Source: Bacteroidales bacterium (GTDB taxonomy: Bacteria; Bacteroidota; Bacteroidia; Bacteroidales; Paludibacteraceae). Taken from it: 64,000 nucleotides of DNA. Both the position numbers and the translations under genes were made by a program. Location of the stretch: positions 1-64,000 of the forward strand of contig JAAYSS010000048.1 in the NCBI GenBank assembly GCA_012518275.1, read 5' to 3'. This document shows positions 37,208-64,000 of this stretch, piece by piece; the stretch's first letter is position 1; each line of letters starts with the position of its first letter. Under the pieces are notes generated by a model. The model ran no database searches, was not told the DNA's origin, and worked only from the letters and a program-made list of their open reading frames with translations.

Positions 37208-39268
37208 ATGGATAGAAAAACATTTTATACTCTTCTTTTAGGTTTGATTATTGCCTATCATGCAGACATTGCTGCATCATCACCTAAGCGCGAAATGCGG
37301 GCAACGTGGTTGACTACAGTTGCATACATTGACTGGCCTAAGTCGATTAATCCCGGGAATCAAAAAAAAGAAATGATTAAAATGCTAGATTCAATTCAGA
37401 GTTTGAAATTGAATACGGTGTTTTTTCAGGTACGCTCCTGTTGTGATGCCATGTACAATTCAGCATACGAACCTTGGTCTTCTTACCTTCGAAATAATCG
37501 AGGTGTTGAGCCGAGCTACGATCCATTGGCGTTTGTTTTAGAAGAATGTCACAAAAGGGGGCTTGCTTGTCATGCATGGCTCAATCCTTATCGTTATGCT
37601 TCTCGCGGAAATGGAAGTGGTTGGACGGGCTCTCATGATCACCCTTTGAATTATGAAAACACACATCCGGAGTGGTTACTTTGGTATAGCAGCAGCGTAA
37701 TATTGGACCCGGCACTTCCGGAAGTTCGATTTCGTATAAAAAGTGTCGTCGGTGATATTTTGAGTAAGTATGATGTTGATGGTATTATTTTCGATGATTA
37801 TTTCTATCCTTATGGCGGTACAACTACCGAAGATGCCAAATCGGTTGCTGCTTATAAACCGAATGATATGAACGTACATGACTGGCGTCGTTCTAACGTC
37901 AATCAAATGATTGCAGACGTATATGACACCATTCAATCAGTGAAGCCGTGGGTGGCTTTTGGTGTCTCTCCTTTTGGCATTTGGACAACAAATTCATATG
38001 TGGCTTATAAAGAAGGTCTTACTTTGCCAGCTGGTATCACAGGAGGAAATATGTATCAAGAAATCTACTGTGATCCTGTAGCGTGGCTTAAAGCCGGGAC
38101 GGTTGATTACATTTCGCCTCAACTTTATTGGCGGATAGGCGGCGGTCAAGATTACGCTACCTTGTGTCCTTGGTGGGCTGATATAGCCAATAAGTTTGGC
38201 AGACATTTCTATCCTAGCTTGGCTATTTATAAATATTCGGAAGGTAAAGGTTATACAGTAAATGAACTTGCGAGACAAACAGAAATAGATAGAGCATCTT
38301 CTTTTGATAATGCTCCCGGCCACGTTTTTTATAACACCTTGGGATGGGTATATGATAAACCGTTTCGGGATAAGTTTCGGGAATCAACGTTTTCAACAAA
38401 TGCAGTTGCACCTGCCATAGATTGGAAAAAATATGATACATATGAAATGGTAACTTTTAATCGACCTGTGGGGCAAACTATATCTTGGAAACATGATAAA
38501 AGTGATATCTTACGTTTTCTGGTATACGCTGTACCTCAATCCAACAGAAACGACCCCAATGTGTTTCATAAATCCGATTATCTTTTGGGTGTAAGTTACA
38601 CTACTGAATACGTTTTGCCTTCGCACATCACGACCAGTTCTCACAAAATAGCTGTCTCAGTATTAGATCGATACGGTAATGAACATTCGTTACGTGTTAT
38701 GGGTGAGACTCTTATGGATGATCCTGTTGCGACTACATTGATAGCACCGACTGCAAATCATATACAAGAATTGCCTATTACTTTCCAATGGCAACCGGTA
38801 GAAAAGGCAGACAGTTACATCTGGCAGTTAGCGCGCGATGATAAATTTACAGACATTGTATGTACACATGAAACGACTCAAAATATATTCTATTCAACGA
38901 CACGTAAGCATATTAACAAAGACGGAATTTATTATTGGCGAGTTTTGACCCGCAAGCCCAATACCAATGATTGCTGGTCTGAAACAAGAAAAATCACTTT
39001 CGGAACAGGTAGTGGTTTGATTAATACTTTCGATGAAAAACTGAATGCACGATTTTATAAAAATAACCTGATGGTTTATGTGTTGGAAGCCTCTAATATG
39101 CAGGTAAATGTGTATGACGTATCCGGGCATTTACTGCACACTAAAAATTATTCCTTACAAGCAGGCAATAATGAAATAATCTTGAATTTGGAATCTTTGA
39201 GACAAGGCGTCTACCTAATACGGATGCAAACTCCTTATCAAGTCGGAACATTGAAAGTAAAACTGTGA
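37208..39268 (+). CDS. GHL10/DUF187 glycosidase with T9SS sorting domain (DigH-like)
   Basis: A 686-residue secreted protein. After a signal sequence, the GHL10 (DUF187) domain fills about residues 28-360: REMRATWLTTVAYIDWPKS, LNTVFFQVRS, YDPLAFVLEECHKRGLACHAWLNPYR and VDGIIFDDYFYPYGG. In E. coli the GHL10 protein DigH hydrolyses peptidoglycan glycan strands lacking stem peptides, so this enzyme is likely to act on denuded glycan. A fibronectin-like region follows (ITFQWQPVEKADSYIWQLARD), then a C-terminal T9SS type A sorting domain (MQVNVYDVSGHLLH, QGVYLIRMQT). It should be exported by the T9SS encoded at 24-30 kb. It is the first gene of the locus. Confidence 0.87.
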   Translation: MDRKTFYTLLLGLIIAYHADIAASSPKREMRATWLTTVAYIDWPKSINPGNQKKEMIKMLDSIQSLKLNTVFFQVRSCCDAMYNSAYEPWSSYLRNNRGVEPSYDPLAFVLEECHKRGLACHAWLNPYRYASRGNGSGWTGSHDHPLNYENTHPEWLLWYSSSVILDPALPEVRFRIKSVVGDILSKYDVDGIIFDDYFYPYGGTTTEDAKSVAAYKPNDMNVHDWRRSNVNQMIADVYDTIQSVKPWVAFGVSPFGIWTTNSYVAYKEGLTLPAGITGGNMYQEIYCDPVAWLKAGTVDYISPQLYWRIGGGQDYATLCPWWADIANKFGRHFYPSLAIYKYSEGKGYTVNELARQTEIDRASSFDNAPGHVFYNTLGWVYDKPFRDKFRESTFSTNAVAPAIDWKKYDTYEMVTFNRPVGQTISWKHDKSDILRFLVYAVPQSNRNDPNVFHKSDYLLGVSYTTEYVLPSHITTSSHKIAVSVLDRYGNEHSLRVMGETLMDDPVATTLIAPTANHIQELPITFQWQPVEKADSYIWQLARDDKFTDIVCTHETTQNIFYSTTRKHINKDGIYYWRVLTRKPNTNDCWSETRKITFGTGSGLINTFDEKLNARFYKNNLMVYVLEASNMQVNVYDVSGHLLHTKNYSLQAGNNEIILNLESLRQGVYLIRMQTPYQVGTLKVKL

Positions 39269-39446
39269 TGTTTTACACCTAAATCGATTTTTTATCACTT
39301 ACAGTGGCATTAATAATGCCCATTGAACAGGCTTTCTACAAAAATGATGGTTTGTTTGTAGCAAATCTCTATACACAAGTAAGCATTAGGCAAATAATTA
39401 ACTGCAATAATATAATACTTTAATCAAAATTAAATTCATTAGTTCT

Positions 39447-40346
39447 ATGAGAAAAACATTATTTTTATTTTTGCTGTTAGGACAACTAGTTTGTGCTCAG
39501 CAAATTGAGTTAAAATCGGTTCGCTTGTTAGCTGGAACCGAAAAGGGTGGTTTTTACCATCCGGTGTTTAGTCCGCAAGGAAACTATATTCTAACTACAT
39601 TTGATGATTATCAGGGACTAAATTGTCATGTTTTAGCAACGAACGAAATCAAGCGTTTGACTTCTGATTTAGGTGCCGGTTATGCTGTACGAATCAGTAA
39701 CGACGAAAATACAATCTTATACCGAAAGTATAATTTTGTACAGAATGTACGCTATTCTTCTTTGCGTAAATACACCATGAACAATGGCAGAAATGTGGAG
39801 CTGATAAAGCCGACGCGTGAAAACATAGTACCTCAATTTTCCAACAATGCTCCTGTTTATTTGCGCGGCAAAAAAATGCTCAAAGCTCCATCCGCTAAAA
39901 AATCTCTGCCGTTAATTACCATTGAAAATAAAAAAATGGTATTGTACATTGACGGAACTGCTCGGGTACTTACACCCAACGGTGAGAATGAAAGTTATTT
40001 TTGGACAAGCATTTCACCCGATAACAGACATATAGTTTACACTACAGCTCGCGGCGGCACATTTGTGTGTGATTTAGATGGAAAAAACGTTGTTTCAATT
40101 GGCTACTTAAATTCGCCTAAGTGGTTAAATAATAAATGGCTTGTAGGTATGAATGATGTTGATGACGGGCATAAAGTGCTCTCGTCTGATATTGTAGCTG
40201 TATCTATTGACGGGAAAACACGAAAAACATTTCAGCTACCGAAAAAAATGAAAGCAATGTATCCCGCCCCTTCAGCCGATGGCAAAAAAATAGCTTTTAA
40301 TACCTTAGAAGGTAAAATTTATATCATGGAAATAACAATTAAATAA
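39447..40346 (+). CDS. TolB-like beta-propeller protein, secreted
   Basis: A 299-residue protein with a signal peptide (LFLFLLLGQLVCAQ) and repeated propeller blades of the PD40/TolB type: FYHPVFSPQGNYILTTFDD, GYAVRISNDENTILY, WTSISPDNRHIVYTTARGG and YPAPSADGKKIAFNTLEG. It has no catalytic motif or sorting domain. Propellers of this kind bind proteins or glycans. It lies between the GHL10 enzyme and the large amidase, 22 bp before the latter, so a helper role in the same system is likely. Confidence 0.7.
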   Translation: MRKTLFLFLLLGQLVCAQQIELKSVRLLAGTEKGGFYHPVFSPQGNYILTTFDDYQGLNCHVLATNEIKRLTSDLGAGYAVRISNDENTILYRKYNFVQNVRYSSLRKYTMNNGRNVELIKPTRENIVPQFSNNAPVYLRGKKMLKAPSAKKSLPLITIENKKMVLYIDGTARVLTPNGENESYFWTSISPDNRHIVYTTARGGTFVCDLDGKNVVSIGYLNSPKWLNNKWLVGMNDVDDGHKVLSSDIVAVSIDGKTRKTFQLPKKMKAMYPAPSADGKKIAFNTLEGKIYIMEITIK

Positions 40347-40368: not shown

Positions 40369-43300
40369 ATGAAAAAAAATATTTTATTTTTACTAATCCT
40401 GTGTATGTCGGTTATGGCTCAGGCAACTGATTTAACGGGATTAAAAATATATATAAACCCGGGACACGGTGGACATGAAGGAAACGATCGCAGTGTGTGG
40501 ACTATTCCGGTTCCGGAAGTTTGGACAAATCCGAACGGATATTGGGAGTCAAATTCAAATTTAGTAAAAGGTTTAGCTTTGCGCGATATGCTTGAAGATG
40601 CTGGAGCAACTGTTATTATGTCTCGTGTAGAAAATAGAACTGAAGATGACCGACCACTATCCTCTATTGCCGAAGAAGCAAATGCAAATCAAGTTGATCA
40701 CTTCCTTTCTATTCACTCTAACGCATTAAATACGCTTACGAATTATCTACTTATACTGTACCGCGGCAGACAAGGAGCCCCTACAACTCCCCCAAGTGAT
40801 CAGATGGCCGCATCTTTTGGAAATATCCAAATTAAAAATCCGCTAACGGTATGGACCAGTCCAAATCCATTGCTTCGTGGGGATATAACTTTTTATCCAG
40901 CCGATTGGAACGGCTTGGGAGTATTGCGTCCGTTGGTTGTACCCGGATTCCTTTCTGAAGGATCATTCCATGATTATCCGCCTGAAACACACCGTTTGTG
41001 TAATAATGATTATTGTAAGTTGGAAGCCCTTCGTTTATTTGAACATTTTTACACATGGTATAAAAGAGAAACTCCTACTACAGGTACCCTCTCCGGGTGG
41101 GTAAAATCAGAAAATGAATTAGTTGATGTGTTGAATGAACCGAAATTTACTTATATCGAAGGTACAGATGATCAGTGGCTGCCATTGAATGGAGCTACCG
41201 TTAAATTGTTGAGAGCATCAGACAATTCTGTTTTACAAACATACACAACTGATGATTGGTATAACGGTATTTTTGCATTTTACGATTTAGAGCCGGGTAA
41301 TTATAAAGTTTCGATTGAAAAAGAAAATTATAAATCGAAAGTAGTTGATGCGACGGTAGAAGCAGGAAAAATTGCCGGTTTGAAAGTTCAATTGAAAAAT
41401 ATCCGTTTGGATCTACCTGATTATCCGGAACCTGAACAGGAACAAGGTATGGCTGCATTAGACAGTTATGAATTTGAACCTGTCGGAACTACGTTACAGC
41501 CCGACTGGATGAAGGGTGCTGTTATTCAACGTGCTATTAAAAGAGATAATAAAATATACGTTTTAACGGAATCTCCTAAATTATTCATTGTAAATGCTTC
41601 TACGTTAGCCTTAGAAAAAGAAATGAAGTTGACCGGAATAAATGGCATTAATGATATTGCCATTTCGGCAGACCATTATTTAATGGCTATTACTAAAGCT
41701 GATAACGGATGCAAGGTTTACACGTGGGAAGCCGATGATGCAGAACCGACCCTATTATTTGAAACCGATAAGCATGCAGCTTTTGCTAATGCAACTGTCG
41801 GCTCTACGATGGCGGTTACAGGCTCGCGCTGGAATTGTACCGTTTATACTACGGTTATCAACAAAGATGCTGATGGAAATGCTCCTGCCGTAGCTTTAAT
41901 GGGCATGAAATATCATGCAGATTCACCAACTGAAATTTCCACAAAATACATGTTGGTTGGCGATGCCCTTACTGCTGAAGCTTGGGGAAAAAATCCTGTG
42001 CTAACCGTTATGCCGAATGGACACTTGTATGTAGATAGTGAAACTATTTTGCCCGCTGAATTTATATTTGACTGGGATAAAGCCGACGGCACGAAAATGG
42101 AGAAAAAAAGCTTCATGACTGAAGATTTTACCCCCGATGTGTCTTCTTGTGGCGGTACATTTTTCCGTTATGCTAACCATACCTATTTAGCTATGCCTGC
42201 AGCTGAAGCCGGTGGAGTTAAAGTCGGTGTTGTATTATTTGATGTAAACGAAGGTTTAGATCAAGCTAAAAAGATATCCGAAAGATATCCGAACACAGGT
42301 TTGGGAACTACGTCAGCTACCTATATGACGTCTTTTGGAGTGGTGGATGGTTACAATATTGATCTATTGTTGTTGGTTCAAAATCAGGGCTTTGCAAGAT
42401 ATAGGACAATCGGCAAGCCGGTGATGAATATTTATGCTTCCGAGCTTTCACTTTCGTCCGAAAAAACTTTCGGTTTTAAACTCAACGAGGATGCCACAAG
42501 TGTATTAATAAATATATACAAGGATGGCGAGTTGCTCGAAAGTTATCCTGTAGGAGCTAAGACAAAAGGAGCTCACTCTATTGCTAATCCGTTCGGGGAA
42601 AAAGATTTTGATGAGTGGGGAATTACAGCGTCAGCTCGTGCTGTGGCTTATCCGCTTAAAGTTTCAGATGATTCTCAGCTTTTCCAATATTATGCACCAC
42701 GTGGCTTAGCTGTAGACAATACGCCTGAAAGTCCTTTCTTCGGTCGGATATATGTCACAGAATCACTTGGAGGTACTGTTTCTGCAGGAGCACCTAGTGA
42801 TCCGCGTACTGTTGAACAAGGCGTGTATATGCTTGATGCCGCTTTGACCGATGTGGCTAATCAAGGAGATAAAAGCTATTCCGGTAATGTGAACTGGGGT
42901 ACCGGTGGTAATAATTACCAATGGCCACTTACAAGACCATCAGTAGCTCCTGATGGGAAAGTTTATTTATCCAGCTCCACTCTTGATGGATCCGGTATTT
43001 ATATCATGGATCCTGCTAATCCAACCGCAGATTTCAAGCCTGTATTTAGCGGAGAGAGAAATGCGGGTTTGGGAACGGAAATGATTAATGGAAAATTGAT
43101 TCATAGCCCGATTATGCACTGTAACATTCAGGGTACAGGAGCAGATACCAAATTGTACACCTATGATAGGAATTTTGATCCGGGAGTGCACGTTAATATC
43201 AATCAATACGATATTGGTGATGGAAGTACATTGCCTTGGAAGAGTGAACCTACGGCCGTAGTGTATAACGACAAAGAAGCCCCTGTTATGCTGAATGGTA

Positions 43301-43989
43301 ACGGTTGTATCGCTTCCGATGGACGAGGTGGATGGTGGCTCTCACAATACCGTTATACGAGTAGCACGGCTGTACCCTCATTGATTCATATCACTGATGG
43401 AAAAATCAACTACAATTGTGGATCAGAAATAGTAAGTTCATTTCAGGGTGGTATGGGTGTAAACAAAGACGGTTCAATGTTGGCAATAGGTAGGGAAACC
43501 GGAAAGGTTGCCGTATATGATGTGGTTTACGATGCAGCCAATGTACCGACACTGACTGAAAAATTTGTAATAGATTGGGGAGACGGCAAAGGCAACACAA
43601 TGGGTGTAGAATTCGATGTAGCCGGAAACTTGTATATTGTGTCTAACTCCAACGAAAGGCTAATGGTTTATTCATTACCTAATCTAAACAACACCTACAC
43701 AACGCGCATTCCGGCAAATAATAACGGTACCGGGCTTAAAACTATATCTGTAGATGAAAATGTGAAAGTATATCCGAATCCGGCATCAACTGAAGTTATC
43801 ATTGATGCTCAGGAGGTATTTGTTGAGAATTACTCTTTATATGATATAGCGGGAGGTTTAATGACTACCGGAGAAATGAATGGTGTTTCATCAACAATTT
43901 CTGTAACAAACTTACAGGAAGGAATTTACATATTACAACTGAACACAACCCAAGGAGTTGTAAATAAACGAATTATAATAAAACGATAA
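40369..43989 (+). CDS. N-acetylmuramoyl-L-alanine amidase (amidase_3) fused to propeller and T9SS tail
   Basis: A 1206-residue multidomain exported enzyme. After a signal peptide, an amidase_3 domain (about residues 23-225) shows the zinc ligands His33 (NPGHGG), Glu60 (GYWESN) and His116 (LSIHSNA), and a catalytic Glu candidate in GFLSEGSF. It would cut the MurNAc-L-Ala bond. Next is a carboxypeptidase-regulatory-like beta domain (about 235-345; GATVKLLRASDNS, FAFYDLEPGNYKVSI), then some 750 residues of beta-propeller-like DUF4623-type sequence, and a T9SS type A sorting domain at the end (VKVYPNPASTEVII, QEGIYILQL). The combination is very long for an amidase. The propeller resembles the next gene, so the two probably share a binding role. 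Confidence 0.85.
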   Translation: MKKNILFLLILCMSVMAQATDLTGLKIYINPGHGGHEGNDRSVWTIPVPEVWTNPNGYWESNSNLVKGLALRDMLEDAGATVIMSRVENRTEDDRPLSSIAEEANANQVDHFLSIHSNALNTLTNYLLILYRGRQGAPTTPPSDQMAASFGNIQIKNPLTVWTSPNPLLRGDITFYPADWNGLGVLRPLVVPGFLSEGSFHDYPPETHRLCNNDYCKLEALRLFEHFYTWYKRETPTTGTLSGWVKSENELVDVLNEPKFTYIEGTDDQWLPLNGATVKLLRASDNSVLQTYTTDDWYNGIFAFYDLEPGNYKVSIEKENYKSKVVDATVEAGKIAGLKVQLKNIRLDLPDYPEPEQEQGMAALDSYEFEPVGTTLQPDWMKGAVIQRAIKRDNKIYVLTESPKLFIVNASTLALEKEMKLTGINGINDIAISADHYLMAITKADNGCKVYTWEADDAEPTLLFETDKHAAFANATVGSTMAVTGSRWNCTVYTTVINKDADGNAPAVALMGMKYHADSPTEISTKYMLVGDALTAEAWGKNPVLTVMPNGHLYVDSETILPAEFIFDWDKADGTKMEKKSFMTEDFTPDVSSCGGTFFRYANHTYLAMPAAEAGGVKVGVVLFDVNEGLDQAKKISERYPNTGLGTTSATYMTSFGVVDGYNIDLLLLVQNQGFARYRTIGKPVMNIYASELSLSSEKTFGFKLNEDATSVLINIYKDGELLESYPVGAKTKGAHSIANPFGEKDFDEWGITASARAVAYPLKVSDDSQLFQYYAPRGLAVDNTPESPFFGRIYVTESLGGTVSAGAPSDPRTVEQGVYMLDAALTDVANQGDKSYSGNVNWGTGGNNYQWPLTRPSVAPDGKVYLSSSTLDGSGIYIMDPANPTADFKPVFSGERNAGLGTEMINGKLIHSPIMHCNIQGTGADTKLYTYDRNFDPGVHVNINQYDIGDGSTLPWKSEPTAVVYNDKEAPVMLNGNGCIASDGRGGWWLSQYRYTSSTAVPSLIHITDGKINYNCGSEIVSSFQGGMGVNKDGSMLAIGRETGKVAVYDVVYDAANVPTLTEKFVIDWGDGKGNTMGVEFDVAGNLYIVSNSNERLMVYSLPNLNNTYTTRIPANNNGTGLKTISVDENVKVYPNPASTEVIIDAQEVFVENYSLYDIAGGLMTTGEMNGVSSTISVTNLQEGIYILQLNTTQGVVNKRIIIKR

Positions 43990-43994
43990 AAAAC

Positions 43995-44026
43995 AAGTTT
44001 GCAAGGGAATATTCCCTTGCAAACTT
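43995..44026. terminator. 32-bp perfect palindrome after the amidase gene
   Basis: The arms AAGTTTGCAAGGGAAT and its exact complement meet without a loop (43995-44026), 6 bp after the amidase stop. As RNA it forms a long hairpin that may attenuate transcription or protect the upstream mRNA end. There is no T-run after it. Confidence 0.6.
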
Positions 44027-44070
44027 ATAATACAATCAAATCAATTCTTTTAATTTTAAATTTTATTATC

Positions 44071-45735
44071 ATGAAAAAAATTTTTATGCTTATTACCTGT
44101 TGCTTCATGGCAATAGCTGTGAATGCCGCAGAGTTAAACATTTATGCATCCGGCTTGAAGTCCGGTGACGTAAATAGTGAGAAAAAAGTGGAAATAGAAT
44201 ATTTCCTAAATGCTCCTGCTACAGCTCTAGCTGTAAACATTATGCAGGGTGAAACGATTGTGAAAACAATTGATCTGACCGATGCCGCTCTTCTAACTCA
44301 AGGTGCACACACGACTACTCTTGACTTGAGCGAGGTATCAGACGGTACATACTCGTGGACAATGACTGCCACAGGTGCGACTACAGAATCTGCGCCGGTA
44401 CAAGTAAATGATACCGAGCAACCGCAGTTTCAGTTTTATCACCCGCGTGATGTAATTGTAGATAACAGCTACGAAAGCCCTTATTTTGGACGCATATATG
44501 CTACAATGTGCTGGACTTCAGGATCAGATGGTACTACACCGCATGTGCAAACACAGACAAAAGGTATCTTTATTCTTGATCCGGGCTTGACCGATATTAC
44601 CAATCAAGGAAATCAAGGTTACTCCGGAGGAATTACGTGGCCAGTTGAAGGTCAAGGTCCGAAAAGAATTATGGTTGACGCTGAAGGTGGTGTATGGGTT
44701 TGCGATAACGGTAAAGATGTTTCGGGTATCTACATTATGGATCCTGCAAATCCTTCAGCCGATTTTAAACCTGTTTTTGCAGACGGTACTCGTGATGAAG
44801 AAGGTGTGAAAACAGTAGACGGAACTGCTATTCATGGTAAAATAGCTGCATTTTGTCTGACCGGATCCGGTGAAGACACTAAGCTGTATACCATGGACAA
44901 CTCGCTTGCTGTTAATGGTGCTACATTAAACATACTACAATACAATGTGGGTTCTTTAGATGCTCCTTACGCGCTTCCATACGATGCTATAGCATATGAC
45001 AACTCGACCGGAAAATATGCTAACTCTAATTTAGCCATAGTTTCAGATAAAACTCAGGGCGGATTTTGGGTAGCCCAAAATCGTTGGGGATTCGATGCTC
45101 ATCCAGCTTTTTCACATATCAGTTCAACAGGTGATATGGACTTTTCATCCACCGCAGAAAATTTTCCGGCATTTTCCAAAAATGTTTCGTACCGTGGAGC
45201 TGTTGCTGTAAATAATGACGGTTCTTTGTTGGCTGCAGGAAGTGACGGAACGGTAAAATTCTTTGATGTTAGCTATGATGCAGAAGGTGTTCCCGCTTTA
45301 CAGTTCAAATCAGAATGGGTGATTCCTACCATTGGTAACAATATTGACGGAATAGCTTTCGACGTGGCTGATAATTTGTATGTGGTTTCAGCAAGTAGTG
45401 AGCGGATGCATATTTTTGCTCTTCCAAAAGCAACAAATACTATCACCGTTCCGGCTCCGTCAACCTACAAACTTGAAATCACCCCGACAGGGCTCAACAC
45501 CAATCTGTTGGATGCAGCAACTGTAAGCGTTGAAAATAATATGCTGCAGGTTCATGCAGGACAAACAACGCTGACTGGCTACGCGATTTATAGTTTCGAC
45601 GGTCGTATGTTGAAGTCACTAAAAGTTAACACACAACAACTTAATGTTCCGATTGACAATTTGGCTGTTGGAACTTATTTAATTCGTTTGACTTCAGACG
45701 ATGGCGTTGTGACAAAGAAATTTATTAAGAGATAA
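44071..45735 (+). CDS. Secreted DUF4623-type beta-propeller protein with T9SS sorting domain
   Basis: A 554-residue exported protein. The signal peptide is MKKIFMLITCCFMAIAVNA; the propeller begins near HPRDVIVDNSYESPYFGRI, and the C-terminus carries a T9SS type A sorting domain (YAIYSFDGRMLKSL, VGTYLIRL). The segment with ESPYFGRIY, YIMDPANPSADFKPVF and FDVADNLYVVS aligns clearly with the C-terminal half of the preceding amidase, so the two genes are paralogous over about 400 residues. I use the ATG at 44071; a TTG at 43999 lies inside the palindrome and would spoil the signal peptide. The likely role is binding glycan or wall fragments at the cell surface. Confidence 0.75.
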   Translation: MKKIFMLITCCFMAIAVNAAELNIYASGLKSGDVNSEKKVEIEYFLNAPATALAVNIMQGETIVKTIDLTDAALLTQGAHTTTLDLSEVSDGTYSWTMTATGATTESAPVQVNDTEQPQFQFYHPRDVIVDNSYESPYFGRIYATMCWTSGSDGTTPHVQTQTKGIFILDPGLTDITNQGNQGYSGGITWPVEGQGPKRIMVDAEGGVWVCDNGKDVSGIYIMDPANPSADFKPVFADGTRDEEGVKTVDGTAIHGKIAAFCLTGSGEDTKLYTMDNSLAVNGATLNILQYNVGSLDAPYALPYDAIAYDNSTGKYANSNLAIVSDKTQGGFWVAQNRWGFDAHPAFSHISSTGDMDFSSTAENFPAFSKNVSYRGAVAVNNDGSLLAAGSDGTVKFFDVSYDAEGVPALQFKSEWVIPTIGNNIDGIAFDVADNLYVVSASSERMHIFALPKATNTITVPAPSTYKLEITPTGLNTNLLDAATVSVENNMLQVHAGQTTLTGYAIYSFDGRMLKSLKVNTQQLNVPIDNLAVGTYLIRLTSDDGVVTKKFIKR

Positions 45736-50896: not shown

Positions 50897-50919
50897 TGAA
50901 TTTTTTAAATGAAAGAAAA

Positions 50920-52977: not shown

Positions 52978-53005
52978 AAGAGCCGATTGAAAGTCGGTTC
53001 TTTTT
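52978..53005 (+). terminator. Terminator upstream of namZ
   Basis: AAGAGCCGA and TCGGTTCTT form a 9-bp stem (one G-T pair) with a 7-nt loop and a T-run. It lies only about 25 bp before the namZ -7 box, so it separates the namZ unit from upstream transcription, unless it is antiterminated. Confidence 0.65.
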
Positions 53006-53027: not shown

Positions 53028-53035
53028 TAACTTTG
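53028..53035 (+). promoter_or_regulatory. -7 box for namZ
   Basis: TAACTTTG matches TAnnTTTG, 15 bp before the ATG at 53051. No TTTG at -33 is seen. It rules out the TTG at 53033 as a start codon. Confidence 0.55.
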
Positions 53036-53050
53036 TTCACATTTAAGAAA

Positions 53051-56235: not shown

Positions 56236-59200
56236 ATGTGTGAAATAAAAAAAATATTTCTTTCCTTTCGGAATTCCTGTATTAGGAGGATAGGAGTCCT
56301 TTTTTTTGTATTTGGTTTTATTTTCACTCATGCTCTTTTTGCTCAACTTCTCACACCCGAAGTTACTTCAAACATTGAAAACTATCTGAATTCGGAGGTT
56401 GGAAAAGAAATTTCTGTGGGTAAAATTCGTATTGACAGTGTTAAGATTGTTGATAAAGAGTTACATCTTTTTGTAAACGATCAATTTTCCAATTTTCCGT
56501 TTCGAAACAATAATGTTCCCCAGTTTTATTCGAACGTTAAAGGGTTGTTGCCAAGTGATTTGAATGCTTTTTCTTTGAAAATTTTTACTGGAAGAAAAAC
56601 GATTGAAGAGTTAATTCTTCCTGAAATATCTACCCGTAAAAATAAAAAGCGAAAAACTTTTAGCACCAACACTAAAGTACCGCTAGTTAGTCGCTTGTCT
56701 ACACATAATAAACCAACAAGGGGACTACAAAAGCGACATATTGCACTTTGGCAAAGTCATGGTTACTATTTTGAACAAAAGCTGAATCGTTGGGAGTGGC
56801 AACGAGCTCGCCTTTTTCAAACGGTAGAGGATATATATACACAGAGCTACGTTCTTCCTTATCTGGTTCCTATGCTTGAAAATGCTGGTGCTAATGTGTT
56901 GATACCGCGTGAACGGGATATACAAACCGAAGAAATAATAGTGGATAATGACAGTGGAATTCATTCTTCATCAGTCTATACAGAGAAAAATGGTTCAAAA
57001 TCATGGACAAAGGGTGAAACACCGGGATTTGCTCACTTAAAAAATCAGTACATTGACTTTGAAAATCCATTCAAAGAAGGCAGTTTCAGGCAAACAGAAA
57101 CTATTAGAAAAGGGCAAGAAACAACCGCAGAGTGGACGCCTGACATTCCAAAATCGGGTCGCTACGCAGTTTATGTGTCTTATCAAACTTTGCCGAAAAG
57201 CACACAAGATGCCCATTACACTGTTTTTCATCAGGGCGGAAAATCGGAGTTCAAAATTAATCAAAAAATGGGCGGAGGCACCTGGATTTACCTGGGACAT
57301 TTTACCTTTGAAAAGGGGAAAAAGGGGAAAGTGGTTTTGAGTAATCAATCAGCTAAATCAGGTCAAATTTTGACTGCAGACGCTGTGAAATTCGGCGGAG
57401 GTATGGGTAATATTGCCCGTACGTTATCAGCAGACGGTGCAACAGAAAACGTTCCAAGTTCACGAAGCAATGAACCGCAACCCAAAGTTCAACTTCCCAA
57501 AATCGATTATCCATACCAAACAAGCGGATATCCACGTTACACCGAAGCTTCACGCTATTGGATGCAGTGGGCAGGTGTTTCGGATAGTATTTACTCTGAA
57601 AGCAAAGGCAAAAACGATTACACGGACGACTACAAATGCCGTGGATTGTGGGTAAATTACTTGTCAGGCGGTTCAGCAGTTAATCCGAACCAAAAAGGCT
57701 TGAATATCCCTATTGACTTAGCTTTTGCTTTTCATACCGATGCCGGAACTACGATGAATGACAGCATTATCGGTACGCTCGGCATCTATTTTTCAAACAC
57801 CGAAAGTGGAAAATATCCGAACGGTGTTTCTCGGATGGTATCGCGTGAGTTGACCGACCGCATTAACACAAGTATAGTCAATGATATACGTCAACTTTAT
57901 GACCCAAAATGGAGCCGTCGCGGGATGTGGGATCGTTCATACTATGAGGCGCGTTCGCCTAATGTACCAACGATGCTGCTGGAATTACTTTCGCATCAAA
58001 ATTTTGCCGATATGCGCTACGGACTCGATCCCCGTTTTCGCTTTACCGTGAGTCGAGCCATTTACAAAGGAATACTTCAATTTATTGCTTCGCAAAATCA
58101 TACAGAGTATGTAGTACAGCCACTTCCGGTCAATAATATGAGTGTGGAATTTATTGCTGGAAATGAAGTTGCGTTGAGTTGGAAAGCCGTTGAAGACCCG
58201 CTCGAACCAACGGCAAAAGCCGAAAGATTTATTATTTATCAGCGGATAGAAGGTGGTGATTTTGACAATGGAACGATGGTTAGTTCCACTAATTTCAGAA
58301 CGACCATTCCGAACAATAAAGTAGTTAGTTTCAAAGTTACAGCAGTAAATAAGGGTGGTGAAAGTTTTCCTTCAGAAATTCTGTCCATTGGGAAATCTTG
58401 GCAAAATAAAGGTACAATATTGATTGTCAATGGTTTTAATCGGATAAGTGCTCCTGCTGATTTTGACGCACAGGGCGATAGCATTGCCGGTTTTCTAGAT
58501 GATCTAGATCACGGTGTGCCATACATTAATGACTATAAATATATCGGGAAACAAAAAGAGTTTCGTCGAAAAATCCCTTGGATGGACGATGATGCGTCCG
58601 GTTTTGGCGATAGTTATGCAGATTATGAAACAACTATAATTGCAGGAAATACTTTTGATTATCCGGCTATTCACGGAGAAGCGATTTTAAAAGCAGGCTA
58701 CTCTTTTGTATCATGTAGCGATGAAGCTGTCGAAAACCAAACAGTTCGTCTCTCAGATTATAAAATTGTTGATCTGATTTTAGGAAAAGAATATCAAACA
58801 AAGATGGGACCGGGTGGGATAAAACCACTCGAATTTAAGACATTTACTTCTGAGATGCAAACGACTATTTCCGATTACTGCCGTCAAGGCGGAAATATGT
58901 TTGTCACGGGAGCGTTTGTAGGCACTGATTTATGGGACAATCGCCACACGAATTCCCTTGAAAATGATCGGAATTTTACTACGGATATTTTGAAATACAA
59001 ATGGCGTGCAGGTCAAGCATCACGAAAAGGCATGGTTAGAGCCATAATTTCGCCTTTCTCAATGTTTAATGGGGATTTTGATTTTCATAACGAATTAAAT
59101 TCTGAAAGTTACGTAGTGGAGGCACCTGATGCCATAGAACCGGCTTCGGATAATGCTTTCACGATATTTAGATATTCAGAAAATAATTTAAGTGCCGGAA

Positions 59201-59316
59201 TTGCCTACAAAGGTGATTATAAAACTTGTGTGTTGGGTTTTCCGTTTGAAAGTCTGAAGACCAAAGAAGAACGATATAAGATGATGCGGATGGTGTTGGA
59301 GTTTTTTGCTCACTAA
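56236..59316 (+). CDS. Large amidase_3-type protein with golvesin-like domain
   Basis: A 1026-residue exported protein. After the signal sequence and an N-terminal GerMN-like part, an amidase_3-type domain is split in two. The first half (about residues 165-235) has LWQSHGYYFE, WEWQRARLFQTVEDIYTQ and LENAGANVLIPRERD. Then comes a golvesin/xanthan-lyase-like beta insertion (about 270-395; YAVYVSYQT, GGGTWIYLGHFTFEKG). The second half has AFAFHTDAG and MLLELLSHQNFADMRYG with a Glu in the expected catalytic place. A fibronectin-like domain and a C-terminal glutamine-amidotransferase-like region (GTILIVNGFNRI) follow. It probably cleaves stem peptides from peptidoglycan, complementing the T9SS-tailed amidase. 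No sorting domain is seen. Confidence 0.75.
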   Translation: MCEIKKIFLSFRNSCIRRIGVLFFVFGFIFTHALFAQLLTPEVTSNIENYLNSEVGKEISVGKIRIDSVKIVDKELHLFVNDQFSNFPFRNNNVPQFYSNVKGLLPSDLNAFSLKIFTGRKTIEELILPEISTRKNKKRKTFSTNTKVPLVSRLSTHNKPTRGLQKRHIALWQSHGYYFEQKLNRWEWQRARLFQTVEDIYTQSYVLPYLVPMLENAGANVLIPRERDIQTEEIIVDNDSGIHSSSVYTEKNGSKSWTKGETPGFAHLKNQYIDFENPFKEGSFRQTETIRKGQETTAEWTPDIPKSGRYAVYVSYQTLPKSTQDAHYTVFHQGGKSEFKINQKMGGGTWIYLGHFTFEKGKKGKVVLSNQSAKSGQILTADAVKFGGGMGNIARTLSADGATENVPSSRSNEPQPKVQLPKIDYPYQTSGYPRYTEASRYWMQWAGVSDSIYSESKGKNDYTDDYKCRGLWVNYLSGGSAVNPNQKGLNIPIDLAFAFHTDAGTTMNDSIIGTLGIYFSNTESGKYPNGVSRMVSRELTDRINTSIVNDIRQLYDPKWSRRGMWDRSYYEARSPNVPTMLLELLSHQNFADMRYGLDPRFRFTVSRAIYKGILQFIASQNHTEYVVQPLPVNNMSVEFIAGNEVALSWKAVEDPLEPTAKAERFIIYQRIEGGDFDNGTMVSSTNFRTTIPNNKVVSFKVTAVNKGGESFPSEILSIGKSWQNKGTILIVNGFNRISAPADFDAQGDSIAGFLDDLDHGVPYINDYKYIGKQKEFRRKIPWMDDDASGFGDSYADYETTIIAGNTFDYPAIHGEAILKAGYSFVSCSDEAVENQTVRLSDYKIVDLILGKEYQTKMGPGGIKPLEFKTFTSEMQTTISDYCRQGGNMFVTGAFVGTDLWDNRHTNSLENDRNFTTDILKYKWRAGQASRKGMVRAIISPFSMFNGDFDFHNELNSESYVVEAPDAIEPASDNAFTIFRYSENNLSAGIAYKGDYKTCVLGFPFESLKTKEERYKMMRMVLEFFAH

Positions 59317-59428: not shown

Positions 59429-61270
59429 ATGAAGCATAAACTCACTTTATTTCTAATTATTTTCCAAATCGGTTTCATGTATGGCATGGAACCTTTCCTC
59501 TTTGCCTTACTCACTGATTTGCACATCACACAAGGCACTACGGCGGTAGAAGATTTGGAAAATTCGGTCCGACAAATCAACAATACACCGAAAATAGAAT
59601 TTGTGTTAGTAACCGGAGATATAACGGAGTTTGGCGATAGAGAATCGTTGGAAAAAGCAAAATCGATACTGGATAAATTATCCGTGCCTTACTACATCAC
59701 TTCCGGCAATCACGAAACAAAATGGAGTTCATCGGGACATACCGATTTCAGGCAGATTTTTGGAGATGATAAATTTAGATTCGAACATAAAGGAGTACGG
59801 TTTTTCGGATTTAACACGGGACCCGTTTTAAGGATGGCTGACGGGCACGTTTCACCGCAGGATATCACGTGGCTGAAAAATGAATTGAGCACGCAGGAAA
59901 AATCTGTTCCTGTTATTCTTGCCACTCACTACCCGCTTCAATACGGAGATGTGGACAATTGGTACGAGCTCACAGATGCCGTCAGAGCACACAATATCCG
60001 CGCGATACTTGGCGGACATTATCATCGAAATGCCATTTTTGCCTACGACGGAATTCCAGGTTTAATAAATCGTTCAAACTTGCGTGCAAAAGATGATGTA
60101 GGTGGTTATTCGGTGTTTTCGGTAACGAAAGACAGTTTAATTGTTTATGAACAAACTATCGGTGGAGAACCGAAACGGTGGGCAGGACTATCAATGACTG
60201 AAAAATATTTTGACGAGAAAGGAAGCGATGCAAAATATCCCGATTTTTCGGTGAATAAGCAATTTCCACAAGTGAAAGAAAAATGGCTCATAAAAACTGA
60301 AGTAGGTATCTACAGTTCGCCTGTTGTGTGGAAAAACCGTGTTTTTGTAGGCGATGATTTGGGATATTTGACCGCTTATCGCTCAAAAAACGGTAAAAAA
60401 CTTTGGAGTTACCGGGTCGGAAGCCGAATTATAGGAACTCCTGCCGTTGCTGAGGGTGTGGTAGTTTTTGGCTCTGCCGATAAAAATATTTACGGAATAA
60501 GTGCCAAAAACGGGACTTTATTATGGGAAATTTCTACACGAGAAGCTGTGCTGGGAGCTGTTTCGATTGAAAACGGAATTGCTTACCTTGGCGGAAGCGA
60601 CAATTCGTTCCGAGCCATTGATGTAAGAACTGGAAAAGAACGTTGGATTTTCGATAAACTGAGTGGATATGTGGAAACAAAACCTTTAATTATCAACAAT
60701 AAAGTGGTTCTCGGAGCTTGGGATACGTACTTATATGCATTAGATAAAAACACAGGGAATTTGCTTTGGAAATGGACAAACGGAAAAGGCAGGCATTATT
60801 CGCCCGCTTCAGTTTGGCCCGTTTCTGCTGATGGTAAAATTTTTATTGTTGATCCGGAACGCGCTATGACTGCCATAGATTTGGAAAGCGGGGAAACCGT
60901 TTGGAGCTCAAAACAATCGATGGTTCGCGAGAGTATCGGAATTTCAGAAGACGGTACTCGTATCTATGCCAAAACGATGCAGGACAGCGTGGTTTGTTAT
61001 TCGTCACAAGGAGATAAACCCCAAAAAATATGGTCGTGCAATGTGGGTTACGGATACGAACATAATCCGTCGATGCTCGTAGAAACAGATGGCGTCGTTT
61101 ATGGCAGTACAAAAAACGGTCTTATTTTCGCCTTGGACGCATTGACCGGGAGAGAGATTTGGAAACATAAAATCGGTAATTCGCTGGTAAATACAGTTGT
61201 ACCGATAAGTAAAAAACAAATATTAGTAACGACAGCAGGCGGAGAAATTTGCCAATTAAAAGTACTTTAG
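59429..61270 (+). CDS. Secreted metallophosphoesterase fused to a PQQ-type propeller
   Basis: A 613-residue exported protein with two parts. A calcineurin-like metallophosphoesterase fills about residues 22-240, with all metal motifs: TDLHI, VTGDITEFGD, SGNHET, ATHYPL and GGHYHRN. A seven- or eight-bladed PQQ-type propeller follows (about 290-613), with repeats such as YSSPVVWKNRVFVGDDLGYL, GTPAVAEGVVVFGSADKNIY and LYALDKNTGNLLWKW. The phosphoesterase class hydrolyses phosphodiesters or monoesters; its substrate here is unknown, possibly a phosphorylated wall component. The fusion is uncommon. It lies inside the peptidoglycan locus. Confidence 0.85.
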   Translation: MKHKLTLFLIIFQIGFMYGMEPFLFALLTDLHITQGTTAVEDLENSVRQINNTPKIEFVLVTGDITEFGDRESLEKAKSILDKLSVPYYITSGNHETKWSSSGHTDFRQIFGDDKFRFEHKGVRFFGFNTGPVLRMADGHVSPQDITWLKNELSTQEKSVPVILATHYPLQYGDVDNWYELTDAVRAHNIRAILGGHYHRNAIFAYDGIPGLINRSNLRAKDDVGGYSVFSVTKDSLIVYEQTIGGEPKRWAGLSMTEKYFDEKGSDAKYPDFSVNKQFPQVKEKWLIKTEVGIYSSPVVWKNRVFVGDDLGYLTAYRSKNGKKLWSYRVGSRIIGTPAVAEGVVVFGSADKNIYGISAKNGTLLWEISTREAVLGAVSIENGIAYLGGSDNSFRAIDVRTGKERWIFDKLSGYVETKPLIINNKVVLGAWDTYLYALDKNTGNLLWKWTNGKGRHYSPASVWPVSADGKIFIVDPERAMTAIDLESGETVWSSKQSMVRESIGISEDGTRIYAKTMQDSVVCYSSQGDKPQKIWSCNVGYGYEHNPSMLVETDGVVYGSTKNGLIFALDALTGREIWKHKIGNSLVNTVVPISKKQILVTTAGGEICQLKVL

Positions 61271-61383: not shown

Positions 61384-62841
61384 ATGAAAAAAATTAATTG
61401 CTTTATCCCTTATGAGGATGCTGCACAGGTAACGCAGACCATTCAAAACCTGAAGAAATCAACATTAGTTGATAAGATTTATTTAGTCTCTACTACTCAA
61501 CTTCCATCAGTGGAAGATTGTGAAGTGATTGTAGCAAAAAGTTTAAAATCTACGGATGCTATTCGGAAAATAGCTGAAAAAGCAGATGCTGAGTACACGT
61601 TGATTTATACGAAAACAACGACCTTGCAATGGGTAAATTATTCAATAGAGCGCATGGTTTCTATTGCAAATGATTCATCTGCTGCGATGGCTTATGCAGA
61701 CCACTTTAAGGAAGCCGACGGAGTGCGTCAGGAAGCGCCTGTTATCGATTACCAATTCGGTGCATTGCGCGATGATTTCGATTTCGGTTCTGTACTTCTG
61801 TATCGCACTTCTGCACTAAAAGAAGCTGTGAAAAGAATGGATGTGGACTATGATTTTGCCGGACTTTATGACTTGCGATTGAAAGTTTCACAAAAAGGCG
61901 ATTTGGTACACATCAACGAATTCCTTTACTACGAAATAGAACACGACACAAGAAAATCGGGAGAGAAAATATTTGACTATGTTGACCCGAAAAATCGTGC
62001 CGTGCAAATTGAAATGGAACAGGCTTGCACACAACATTTGAAGGATATAGGCGGATACTTGGAGCCAAAATTCAAACACATTGAATTTTCAGATGATAAC
62101 TTTGAATTTGAAGCATCGGTAGTAATCCCGTGTAAAAACCGTGTGAAAACTATTGGGGATGCCATTCAATCAGCTTTGAACCAAAAAACAAATTTTCCTT
62201 ACAACGTGATTGTGGTGGATGATAATTCTGATGATGGAACAGTAGATGTTATCAAAAAATTCTTGGATGACCCGAAACTGATTTACATCGCCCAAGATAA
62301 GTCGTATCACGCTATTGGTGGTAATTGGAATGCTGCGTTTCATCATCCGAAATGTGGAAAATTTGCCCTTCAATTAGACAGCGACGACCTGTATGTTGAT
62401 GAAAATACCGTGCAACGATTTGTTGATGCGTTTTACGAGCAAGATTGTGCAATGGTAGTTGGAACATATAAACTAACTGACTTTGATTTAGAAGTGATTC
62501 CGCCGGGAATTATTGACCACAAAGAATGGACACCCGAGAATGGACGAAACAATGCGCTTCGTATCAACGGATTAGGTGCTCCGCGTGGTTTCTATGTTCC
62601 CATGCTTCGTCAAATTAATTTCCCAACGACAAAATACGGTGAAGATTATGCAGTAGGTTTGCGAATCAGCCGAGAGTATCAAATCGGACGAATTTATGAC
62701 GTGATGTATCTCTGCCGCCGTTGGGAAGACAATTCAGACGCATCGTTGGATATCGTGAAAATGAACGGGCATAACACCTATAAAGACCGAATTCGGACTT
62801 GGGAATTGCAGGCAAGAGTGAAAATGAATAAGAATAAATAA
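61384..62841 (+). CDS. Glycosyltransferase family 2 protein with tandem GT-A-like halves
   Basis: A 485-residue cytoplasmic protein without membrane helices. The C-terminal half (about residues 240-470) is a clear GT2 domain: ASVVIPCKNRVKTIGDAIQS, VIVVDDNSDDGTVDVIKKF and LQLDSDDLYVDE (the DxD-like metal site). The N-terminal half has a weaker, similar layout (KINCFIPYEDAAQVTQTIQNL, AMAYADHF, LYRTSALKEAVKRM), so it may be a degenerate second GT-A fold. A strong Shine-Dalgarno GGAGG lies at 61372-61376, 7 bp before the ATG, which is unusual in this genome. Its partner DUF4922 follows. The acceptor and product are unknown. Confidence 0.82.
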   Translation: MKKINCFIPYEDAAQVTQTIQNLKKSTLVDKIYLVSTTQLPSVEDCEVIVAKSLKSTDAIRKIAEKADAEYTLIYTKTTTLQWVNYSIERMVSIANDSSAAMAYADHFKEADGVRQEAPVIDYQFGALRDDFDFGSVLLYRTSALKEAVKRMDVDYDFAGLYDLRLKVSQKGDLVHINEFLYYEIEHDTRKSGEKIFDYVDPKNRAVQIEMEQACTQHLKDIGGYLEPKFKHIEFSDDNFEFEASVVIPCKNRVKTIGDAIQSALNQKTNFPYNVIVVDDNSDDGTVDVIKKFLDDPKLIYIAQDKSYHAIGGNWNAAFHHPKCGKFALQLDSDDLYVDENTVQRFVDAFYEQDCAMVVGTYKLTDFDLEVIPPGIIDHKEWTPENGRNNALRINGLGAPRGFYVPMLRQINFPTTKYGEDYAVGLRISREYQIGRIYDVMYLCRRWEDNSDASLDIVKMNGHNTYKDRIRTWELQARVKMNKNK

Positions 62842-62854
62842 AAATAGTCAGTAC

Positions 62855-62888
62855 AGCCCCTATTCCCCGAAATGGGGATATAGGTGGC
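62855..62888. repeat. GC-rich palindromic intergenic element, copy 2
   Basis: CCCC (62865-62868) and GGGG (62874-62877) around gaaat, with outer arms CCTAT and ATAGG, form a hairpin right after the GT2 stop. It resembles the element at 5986-6018 and overlaps the GTG that may start the next gene. Confidence 0.5.
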
Positions 62889-63879
62889 TTTGTTCGATTG
62901 TTTTATAAGGTTGAATAATAAAAACAAAAATAGTTTTGCTTGTGCCGAGGTTTTTTCCAATAATTTATTTCGGGATAAGCAGGAAGTTTATTTGTTGGAG
63001 CAACTAAAAAAATGGGATTTGGCGAAATCCAACTACGAAGCACTGAAACAGGTTGAAACAAAGGAATTAAACGTAAACGGAGCCAAGTTTATAGTTCAAT
63101 TTAACCCAGCTCGAATTGTTTCTTCAGGCGCAAAAGTGGATGCTAAAAGTATTCGGGATCGGGCGTGTTTTCTTTGTGAAGAAAATCGTCCGAAATTACA
63201 GAAAGGATTGGATTTTGGTGAGCATTATACCATTTTAATCAATCCATTTCCTATTTTTCCGAAACATTTTACCATTGTGGACGTAAAGCATGTTCCGCAA
63301 CTTATTGCAGGTCGCTTTGGTGATATGCTGGATTTGGCGGAGTATATGGATGATTATGTGATTTTCTATAACGGTCCAAAATGTGGAGCTTCTGCGCCGG
63401 ATCATGCTCATTTTCAGGCAGGGAACAGAGGTTTCTTGCCTATTGAAAAAGGCTGGAAGAACCACATTGTTGTAAAAAAAGACGAAAATCTTTCTTTGAT
63501 TAACTATGGATTCCCTGCGTTCGTGATTGAAGCATTAAGCAAAAAAAGGTGTATTTGTTTATTTGAAAAAATATACGAAGCGCTACCTGTCAAGGAAGGA
63601 GATACAGAACCAAAGATGAACATCTTAACTTGGTGTGAAGCCAAGCATTTCACAGCTGTAATTATCCCAAGGGCAAAACATCGTCCTGATTGCTTTTTTG
63701 CGAAAGGCGATGAAAATATTCTGATAAGTCCTGCATCTGTGGATTTAGGGGGTGTATTTATCACGCCATTAGAAAAAGATTTTGAAAAAATCACAATAAA
63801 AAATGTGGCTAAAGTTTTAAAAGAAGTATGCCTAAGCGAAAAAGAGTATTACGATATAATTAAAAATTTGGCTGGATAA
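62884..63879 (+). CDS. DUF4922 protein with GalT/HIT-like nucleotidyltransferase motifs
   Basis: A 331-residue protein of the DUF4922 family. Visible are a CxxC pair (RACFLCEENRPK, Cys95 and Cys98) like the zinc-binding cysteines of galactose-1-phosphate uridylyltransferase, the block HYTILINPFPIFPKHFTIV, and a histidine-triad-like active site DHAHFQAG with His174-x-His176-x-Gln178. This matches the GalT/Ap4A-phosphorylase side of the HIT superfamily, so a nucleotidyl transfer or phosphorolysis on a sugar phosphate is likely; the substrate is unknown. The start is unsure: the frame opens with GTG at 62884 directly after a TAG, and other candidates are TTG at 62890 and 62911, while a TAGTTTTG promoter box lies at 62931. 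The first 20-25 residues may thus not be translated. Confidence 0.8.
   Translation: MALFDCFIRLNNKNKNSFACAEVFSNNLFRDKQEVYLLEQLKKWDLAKSNYEALKQVETKELNVNGAKFIVQFNPARIVSSGAKVDAKSIRDRACFLCEENRPKLQKGLDFGEHYTILINPFPIFPKHFTIVDVKHVPQLIAGRFGDMLDLAEYMDDYVIFYNGPKCGASAPDHAHFQAGNRGFLPIEKGWKNHIVVKKDENLSLINYGFPAFVIEALSKKRCICLFEKIYEALPVKEGDTEPKMNILTWCEAKHFTAVIIPRAKHRPDCFFAKGDENILISPASVDLGGVFITPLEKDFEKITIKNVAKVLKEVCLSEKEYYDIIKNLAG
62931..62938 (+). promoter_or_regulatory. -7 box inside the 5' end of the DUF4922 frame
   Basis: TAGTTTTG matches TAnnTTTG. TTG at 62911-62913 lies 17 bp upstream, a little close. If used, the gene must start downstream of 62944, for example at the TTG at 62992. Confidence 0.35.
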
Positions 63880-63903
63880 CAGTCTCTTATAAAAGATAAA
63901 ATT

Positions 63904-64000
63904 ATGCAAGAACCAAAGTTAAGTGTCGGGGTAATGTTCGAACCGAAAATAAAATTTTCGTTTTTGAACAAGTATATTTGCAATGAAGAAGAGGTTTTCG
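63904..64000 (+). CDS. Probable SpoIID/LytB domain protein (start only, partial)
   Basis: The frame opens with ATG at 63904 and runs off the right edge: MQEPKLSVGVMFEPKIKF, then LNKYICNEEEV. This resembles the N-terminus of Bacteroidota SpoIID/LytB proteins, which typically follow a DUF4922 gene. SpoIID is a lytic transglycosylase acting on glycan strands without stem peptides, so it would fit the peptidoglycan theme. Only 32 codons are visible, so the call is tentative. It starts 24 bp after the DUF4922 stop and is probably in the same operon. Confidence 0.5.
   Translation, partial: MQEPKLSVGVMFEPKIKFSFLNKYICNEEEVF

Follow-up and report, generated by a model that had tools for sequence, protein, structure and literature searches.

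Here we describe a locus in a 64,000-nucleotide stretch of DNA (the window; contig JAAYSS010000048.1, positions 1 to 64,000) from a Bacteroidales bacterium of the family Paludibacteraceae, in which a SusC/SusD pair (SusCD) and predicted secreted cell-wall hydrolases lie upstream of a peptidoglycan-salvage operon. The locus probably comprises two transcription units, one running from a GHL10 gene to a DUF4623 gene (unit 1, 37208–52623) and the other from a NamZ-family gene, NamZ1, onward (unit 2, from 53051). Unit 2 is, with high confidence, a salvage operon of a known Bacteroidales kind, that of Tannerella forsythia. For unit 1, we lean toward a role, together with its SusCD, in peptidoglycan import. 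Pairing of a SusCD with the salvage operon recurs in related families, which suggests uptake of cell-wall pieces from outside the cell. As far as our literature searches reach, such a role for the unit 1 SusCD is unreported: we found no report of a SusCD for peptidoglycan or of peptidoglycan as the substrate of a polysaccharide utilization locus (PUL), judging mostly from titles and the beginnings of abstracts, and the available portions of PMC10877868 and PMC10266427 did not bear on a peptidoglycan SusCD.

The window belongs to a 2.4-Mb assembly of 137 contigs that is 89.8% complete. Below, G numbers denote genomes (G000 is the window genome), C numbers contigs (C123 is the window contig), and L numbers loci. 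Gene content was assigned by Pfam profile searches of the locus proteins, and all genes listed for the locus lie on the plus strand. An earlier note on this DNA had named GHL10, NamZ, SusC/SusD, a lipoprotein, an SSS symporter, and the start of a SpoIID on one strand, and the searches bore this out. The contig runs past the window to 67470 and carries the complete SpoIID gene, a second NamZ gene (NamZ2), and a flavin adenine dinucleotide (FAD) oxidase gene truncated by the contig end. The note's hydrolases secreted by the type IX secretion system (T9SS) also stood, in that GHL10 and the first Amidase_3 protein carry T9SS sorting tails, secretion itself being predicted. Export by this route is plausible because T9SS core genes are present in the window (GldL, GldM, GldN, an FGE-sulfatase-domain protein that presumably stands at the GldK place, and PorP/SprF; 23949–30044, minus strand). 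Two further assignments needed revision. A lipoprotein-like gene does adjoin the SusCD, but its match to DUF4623 rules out the family proposed for it, DUF5018; and of the two amidase_3 proteins, the first is clear, while the second is split by a golvesin domain and scores 20.9 bits against a Pfam gathering score of 27 bits. The genes for the PD40 protein, the T9SS-tailed propeller-like protein, the IVP-like protein, the metallophosphatase, GT2, and DUF4922 had not been listed.

In the pathway that we propose, the T9SS-secreted GHL10, Amidase_3, and related propeller-like proteins of unit 1 would cut peptidoglycan outside the cell, and SusC/SusD with the DUF4623 lipoprotein would bind the wall fragments at the outer membrane and import them. 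Periplasmic NamZ1 and NamZ2 and the golvesin-split amidase would then trim the fragments to units containing N-acetylmuramic acid (MurNAc) and N-acetylglucosamine (GlcNAc), which the SSS symporter and other permeases may move across the inner membrane. MurK and MurQ convert MurNAc to GlcNAc 6-phosphate and D-lactate; they would do so here, and the FAD oxidase beside NamZ2 may use the D-lactate. We infer the localization of the proteins, the substrate of the SusCD, the direction of the steps, and the partly foreign origin of the peptidoglycan.

Comparison across genomes carries this reading. SusC/SusD genes were found within 8 kb of NamZ1 at 13 of 15 operon-type loci (nine on the same strand, four on the opposite strand) vs. 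none of 12 loci with a solitary NamZ1 (Fisher p = 5e-6, a value that ignores kinship; the 15 loci are not independent, several being from Bacteroides, and the solitary proteins form a different NamZ1 subgroup of about 40–60% identity). The 15 are the distinct loci with at least 1.9 kb of upstream sequence among 18 operon-type rows, and solitary rows needed at least 3 kb. Rows left out of the comparison were L149, L183, L054, and L067 (upstream sequence of 2, 681, 543, and 1751 bp) and L204, a duplicate of L159 with the same genes; L050, whose NamZ1 is cut, also stands outside the count and would bring it to 14 of 16 if taken as positive. Upstream sequence amounted to only about 2 kb in L037, L157, L159, L166, L167, L169, and L181 and to 3.1 kb in L053, and in L166, L167, and L181 one member of the SusC/SusD pair was seen rather than both. 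For L037, locus L036 reaches farther upstream and likewise shows no SusCD. At one solitary locus (L057), a SusC fragment lies about 9 kb away, beyond the limit.

The reverse search, in which the window SusD was compared with 295 genomes of the order and at most four candidates per genome were scored, returned 16 matches besides the window at E < 1e-60. Seven of these have the operon's GT2 gene within 20 kb (G303 twice, G188, G304, G157, G043, and G218), for which p ranges from 2e-10 to 2e-7 at an assumed chance of 1–3% each, or from 9e-9 to 3e-6 when the two G303 matches are counted once. Three others (L279, L280, and L281) belong to units that combine GHL10 with DUF4623 or an amidase. Around the match on contig C82 of the window genome, the 13.7 kb read contained no such gene; with it, 11 of the 16 matches are covered. 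In a SusC tree of 31 rows, the window SusC falls in a clade of 17 (support 100/100) made up of 12 operon-linked SusCs, three from GHL10 units, the C82 paralogue, and L276, which is about 15 kb from GT2 on the G303 operon contig. The tree supports kinship of the window SusC with operon SusCs; it proves no exclusive clade, because the operon label clusters no more than when shuffled and the rows, nearly all from loci fetched for the operon or for SusD, were preselected.

Several genomes contain arrangements that parallel the window. G096 (L279) has GHL10-PD40-amidase-(622-aa protein)-SusC-SusD-GntR-metallophosphatase, the order of unit 1 minus DUF4623 and with the 622-aa protein at the place of the T9SS-tailed propeller-like protein; that 622-aa protein matches the window DUF4623 weakly (1e-7). 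Proteiniphilum X52 (L193) carries SusC-SusD-DUF4623-GHL10-golvesin-amidase-GT2-SpoIID-AmpG-NamZ2-DUF5009-like, MurK, and MurQ, and G157 (L205) carries SusC-SusD-GHL10-NamZ1-SSS-GT2-DUF4922-AmpG-NamZ2. The order in G043 (L275) is AmpG-NamZ2-MurK-MurQ-golvesin-amidase, then, after an opposite-strand gene, DUF4623-GHL10-SusC-SusD. A PD40-amidase pair precedes the operon in G133 (L208) and in Limisoma (L178). Separately, we noted MurK-MurQ followed by SusC near GT2 in L129, L132, and L146, from Paludibacteraceae-type and other metagenome-assembled genomes, which adds another SusC lineage linked to MurNAc genes; SusD was found by profile in L129 and L132 and by BLAST in L146.

The identification of unit 2 rests on its gene order, which is GT2-(DUF4922)-SpoIID-NamZ2/YbbC on one strand at the window locus and is conserved in four congeners and beyond. 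G002 and G005 keep NamZ1-SSS-golvesin-amidase-metallophosphatase-GT2-...-SpoIID-NamZ2-oxidase, and G007 has a NamZ1 fragment through SpoIID on a single contig; DUF4922 was matched in G002, with no match in G005 or G007. After the oxidase, the G005 cluster continues with DUF5009-like-MurK-MurQ-beta-lactamase, and G013 has AmpG-NamZ2-DUF5009-like-MurK-MurQ. The earlier note had suggested looking for murK/murQ nearby. Both genes are present in the window genome, not on the window contig but on contig C97, which begins DUF5009-like-MurK-MurQ-beta-lactamase (L277). Since this is the order that follows the oxidase in G005, the operon very likely continues across the C123–C97 gap. The MurQ of the window genome scores 312.6 bits, above the family cut-off; 11 of the 41 genomes searched, this one included, have such a MurQ. 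AmpG was not found between SpoIID and NamZ2 at the window locus; it is on contig C89 and is 60% identical to the Parabacteroides protein. Among the best 80 of 574 candidates in a survey of named loci by GT2, many of them clipped by contig ends, we counted AmpG in 45, DUF4922 in 44, SpoIID in 51, NamZ2 in 39, MurK-like kinases in 25, and MurQ in 15. The FAD oxidase, in its G005 copy, combines FAD_binding_4, FAD-oxidase_C, 4Fe-4S, and CCG domains, a make-up that we take to be that of D-lactate dehydrogenases. A second MurK-like (BadF-type) kinase gene was seen directly before SusC or the golvesin-amidase at four loci (L204:654-1502, L207:16182-17030, L208:9045-9884, and L178:3927-4766).

The known relative is the T. 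forsythia operon Tanf_08345-08385, xanthan lyase-gtf-gtf-lytB-ampG-ybbC-murT-murK-murQ, which is co-transcribed by reverse transcription-PCR (PMC5388701) and has been assigned a role in the scavenging of muropeptides and MurNAc (PMC5388701, PMC5790795, PMC7670621); what we say of T. forsythia refers to the available portions of these three papers. By gene name and place, the sole basis of this comparison, the golvesin protein corresponds to the "xanthan lyase," GT2 to the first gtf, DUF4922 to the second, SpoIID to LytB, NamZ2 to YbbC, and the DUF5009-like gene to murT, followed by MurK and MurQ on C97. Because the DUF5009-like gene holds the murT place, the SSS symporter is perhaps an extra gene rather than MurT. 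The window differs from T. forsythia in the location of AmpG, in the added NamZ1, SSS, and metallophosphatase-PQQ genes, in the oxidase after NamZ2, and in the SusCD/T9SS unit upstream. MurNAc auxotrophy as in T. forsythia is not supported for the window genome, judged on MurA alone, which is present above its family cut-off.

A rival explanation is that the two neighbors have two jobs, with unit 2 recycling peptidoglycan, like the T. forsythia operon, and unit 1 being a PUL or peptide importer for some other substrate that happens to occupy a slot in which SusCDs are exchanged. A body of evidence weighs against the import reading, and much of it would fit this alternative. To begin with, the two units look separately transcribed. 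The genes from PD40 through DUF4623 are closely packed (-13 to 76 bp apart, 33 bp between SusC and SusD), and 178 bp lies between GHL10 and PD40, whereas 409 bp separates DUF4623 from NamZ1. A terminator-like hairpin and a -7-like box fall in that gap, and the box sequence TAnnTTTG occurs, by eye, at the same place before NamZ1 in the window genome and in congeners G005 and G002. Upstream of GHL10 there is a match to TTTG-N-TAnnTTTG, which we take to be the Bacteroidales promoter motif, although its five matches in the window are near the chance expectation of 3.7. Given the gap, the hairpin, and the -7-like box, we rejected one operon across the whole locus for the window genome. The single pathway proposed in the earlier note survives in part: its NamZ-to-SpoIID half belongs to a peptidoglycan/MurNAc salvage cluster of Bacteroidales that includes MurK and MurQ, and SusCD recurs alongside in several families, but a single operon is unlikely here, and no result supports the proposed order of stem peptide removal before glycan use. 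In G303, SusD and NamZ1 are only about 35 bp apart.

The distribution of SusCD also favors two jobs. GT2 was found at E <= 1e-60 in 73 of the 295 genomes, at 74 places, one of which is the window; among the other 73 loci, all read (L203–L274, three of them without a called GT2 open reading frame, and L064), SusC and SusD together were near GT2 in only seven (L204, L205, L207, L212, L213, L215, and L233), and a few more have a SusC-type gene alone. The pair was present at three of three GT2 loci with NamZ1 and five of six with the metallophosphatase, but in only three of 16 with the golvesin-amidase, so SusCD accompanies NamZ1- or metallophosphatase-bearing operon forms and is not a general operon feature. 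These counts may be low: few sequences went into the SusD profile, so that some pairs may escape it, and some loci offer little upstream DNA. DUF4623 is rare (seven of 295 genomes), and of 18 loci read at amidase and DUF4623 matches, 12 contain the PD40-amidase pair, in each case with no SusC match nearby. No sensor or regulator family (hybrid two-component system, extracytoplasmic function sigma/anti-sigma factor, or SusR) was among the Pfam matches in 35193–63879; a linked regulator is common in PULs, if not present in every one.

Within the genus, the picture is similarly uneven. Conserved synteny, which the earlier note had proposed to look for, was found but is patchy: three of seven congeners (G001, G004, and G006) gave no NamZ match, G004 and G006 being 98–99% complete. 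In G002, a congener assembled as a single contig, no SusCD stands upstream of the operon; in G005 and G003 that slot is taken by a different SusCD class (SusD-like_2); and the window-type SusD had no match at E <= 1e-20 in six of seven congeners, the G004 match being 35% identical. On the SusC tree, four of 16 operon-linked rows, including that of G005, fall outside the clade of 17, as does the SusC of G003; clustering of the operon label is not significant (104 of 500 shuffles were as low), and the window SusC's own fork is weak (80/62). A single vertically inherited SusCD was therefore rejected on the basis of the tree, the SusD-like_2 pairs, and the SusD type unmatched in six congeners. Because G002 lacks a SusCD, G005 and G003 carry SusD-like_2, the window SusD type is unmatched in most congeners, and PD40-amidase pairs stand without SusC, SusCD is swapped in and out, a pattern compatible with modular adaptation to wall types as well as with an insertion slot. 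The congeners' SusC/SusD-like_2 pairs lie between NfeD and NamZ1 (L034:11744-16784 and L050:5622-10558), marking the swap site.

The absence of SusD from the main text of the three T. forsythia papers (no matches in each), despite the similar operon, would likewise suit two jobs. Set against this, an amidase of peptidoglycan type and a GHL10 resembling Cwp19 are part of unit 1 itself, several families have NamZ1-headed operons with a SusCD next to them, and units with GHL10, DUF4623, and SusCD adjoin the operon in Proteiniphilum and G043. We consider two separate jobs possible but unlikely. A different substrate within the cell wall was also weighed: the SusCD could import stem peptides or other wall peptides freed by the secreted amidase, with the glycan entering otherwise. 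A surface amidase would indeed free peptides outside, the peptide importers RagA and BT_2264 are among the solved relatives of the window SusC, and near the G002 operon are a C69 peptidase and an enolase-superfamily protein that is dipeptide-epimerase-like by eye. The best SusC structure matches are other SusC homologues rather than RagA, however, operon-linked SusCDs often have the glycan-acting GHL10 or NamZ as neighbors, and no stem-peptide catabolic gene was among the Pfam matches of the window locus, making a peptide importer improbable in our view. A system that reclaims turnover products shed from the cell's own peptidoglycan, rather than foreign wall, would agree with the presence of MurA, by which the organism is not an obvious MurNAc auxotroph, and with operon enzymes that fit recycling. 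We regard this as very improbable: own turnover begins in the periplasm, and an amidase and GHL10 secreted outside by T9SS would be hard to explain. Moreover, T. forsythia grows on the peptidoglycan of other bacteria through its operon's AmpG (PMC7670621).

Import of peptidoglycan through the unit 1 SusCD, if true, would add the bacterial cell wall to the substrates of PULs. It would also suggest how Bacteroidales bring wall fragments across the outer membrane, AmpG and MurT of T. forsythia being inner-membrane importers, and it would direct attention to genera in culture, where deletion and growth experiments can be done. Like PULs with SusCD, unit 1 combines in a tight unit a SusC-SusD pair, a lipoprotein, and secreted hydrolases (GHL10 and amidase); unlike the usual ones, these hydrolases are of peptidoglycan type with T9SS tails, and no PUL-type regulator appeared among the Pfam matches.

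Individual proteins were compared with solved and modeled structures. The only PDB match of GHL10 at E <= 0.001 was Cwp19 of Clostridioides difficile (E = 2e-75), whose GHL10 domain is a lytic transglycosylase according to the available part of PMC6016235; the same activity is predicted for the window protein, which has a T9SS tail in place of cell-wall-binding repeats. NamZ1 has a solved relative, 4jja, an unnamed hypothetical protein (E = 4.8e-212). In the golvesin-amidase, H175, E198, H500, and E583, candidates for the Zn/catalytic His-Glu-His-Glu set of Amidase_3, are at least 95% conserved in 36 sequences; H500 and E583 align to the Amidase_3 motif at low probability (11%), H175 and E198 were picked by eye, and the AlphaFold model (predicted local distance difference test [pLDDT] score, 56.7) was too weak for a fold search. 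The propeller-like label of both T9SS-tailed proteins refers to weak Pfam matches below cut-off. The DUF4623 family matched, by hhalign, a set of three propeller-like regions from the amidases (92.5%, E = 5e-7) and, by BLAST, one of the three, without a direct match to the window's own amidase; the window DUF4623 matches stretches in G018 to which the propeller-like part of the amidase also has matches.

By a simple hydrophobicity measure, as distinct from a signal-peptide predictor, a hydrophobic N terminus was present in 31 of 31 NamZ1 and 46 of 49 NamZ2 sequences and missing from 95 of 96 SpoIID sequences. The operon SpoIID (L002:1904-3235 at the window locus, and its relatives) is for that reason probably cytoplasmic, which is odd for a family of exported lytic transglycosylases. 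The DUF4922 model (pLDDT 67.6, moderate) matched the yeast Ap4A phosphorylase Apa2 in Foldseek (E = 1e-9), a match that places DUF4922 in the superfamily, as far as the model goes, and does not give its substrate. A bolder proposal would be that a set of Bacteroidales possesses a true peptidoglycan PUL of T9SS hydrolases and SusCD, with a cytoplasmic SpoIID acting on imported glycan and DUF4922 and GT2 forming an undescribed route from MurNAc to a nucleotide sugar or wall precursor, a missing step of this kind having been noted for T. forsythia (PMC5790795); we hold this combination to be rather doubtful.

Table 1. Features of the locus, in window coordinates.
Feature	Position	Strand	Basis or remark
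Bacteroidales-type promoter match, 60 bp before GHL10	37116..37148	+	Only plus-strand match in 36000-64000
GHL10 glycosidase/lytic-transglycosylase-like; hydrophobic N terminus, T9SS sorting tail	37208..39268	+	Pfam E 3.2e-64; PDB relative Cwp19
PD40 repeat protein; hydrophobic N terminus, partner of following amidase	39447..40346	+	Pfam; pairing with amidase in 12/18 loci
Amidase_3 with carboxypeptidase-regulatory-like domain, propeller-like region, T9SS tail	40369..43989	+	Pfam
T9SS-tailed propeller-like protein, paralogue of amidase C-terminal half (likely start 44071)	43999..45735	+	37% identity
SusC-type TonB-dependent transporter	45812..49108	+	Pfam, structure relatives, tree
SusD_RagB-family lipoprotein	49142..50896	+	Pfam, SusD search of order
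DUF4623 (PF15416) lipoprotein-like protein	50884..52623	+	Pfam E 5.7e-64
Terminator-like hairpin between SusCD unit and NamZ1	52976..53004	+	12 such hairpins in 52000-64000 vs. 9.4 expected
-7-like box TAnnTTTG directly before NamZ1 ATG 53051	53028..53035	+	By eye
NamZ1, exo-N-acetylmuramidase family (likely start ATG 53051)	53033..54223	+	Pfam; solved relative 4jja
23S-rRNA-IVP-like four-helix protein, probably passenger	54301..54684	+	Pfam
SSS-family symporter, candidate inner-membrane importer	54730..56193	+	Pfam
Golvesin-interrupted Amidase_3-like protein, hydrophobic N terminus; place of T. forsythia "xanthan lyase"	56236..59316	+	Pfam below cut-off
Metallophosphatase with PQQ propeller, hydrophobic N terminus	59429..61270	+	Pfam, hydrophobicity measure
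GT2-type glycosyltransferase, conserved; search anchor	61384..62841	+	Pfam
DUF4922, GalT/Ap4A-phosphorylase-like, conserved HxHxQ	62884..63879	+	Pfam, alignment, Foldseek
SpoIID-like protein start, no hydrophobic N terminus; ends at contig position 65235, then NamZ2, FAD oxidase	63904..64000	+	Pfam

Elsewhere in the window, a division and cell-wall cluster at 8205–17398 (MraW, PBP, Mur ligases, MraY-type GT4, and FtsW) is followed by threonine synthase rather than by more cell-wall genes. The IVP-like four-helix gene lies inside the operon, and a short protein that is similar by eye is encoded in the Proteiniphilum operon at another position (L193:12994-13365).

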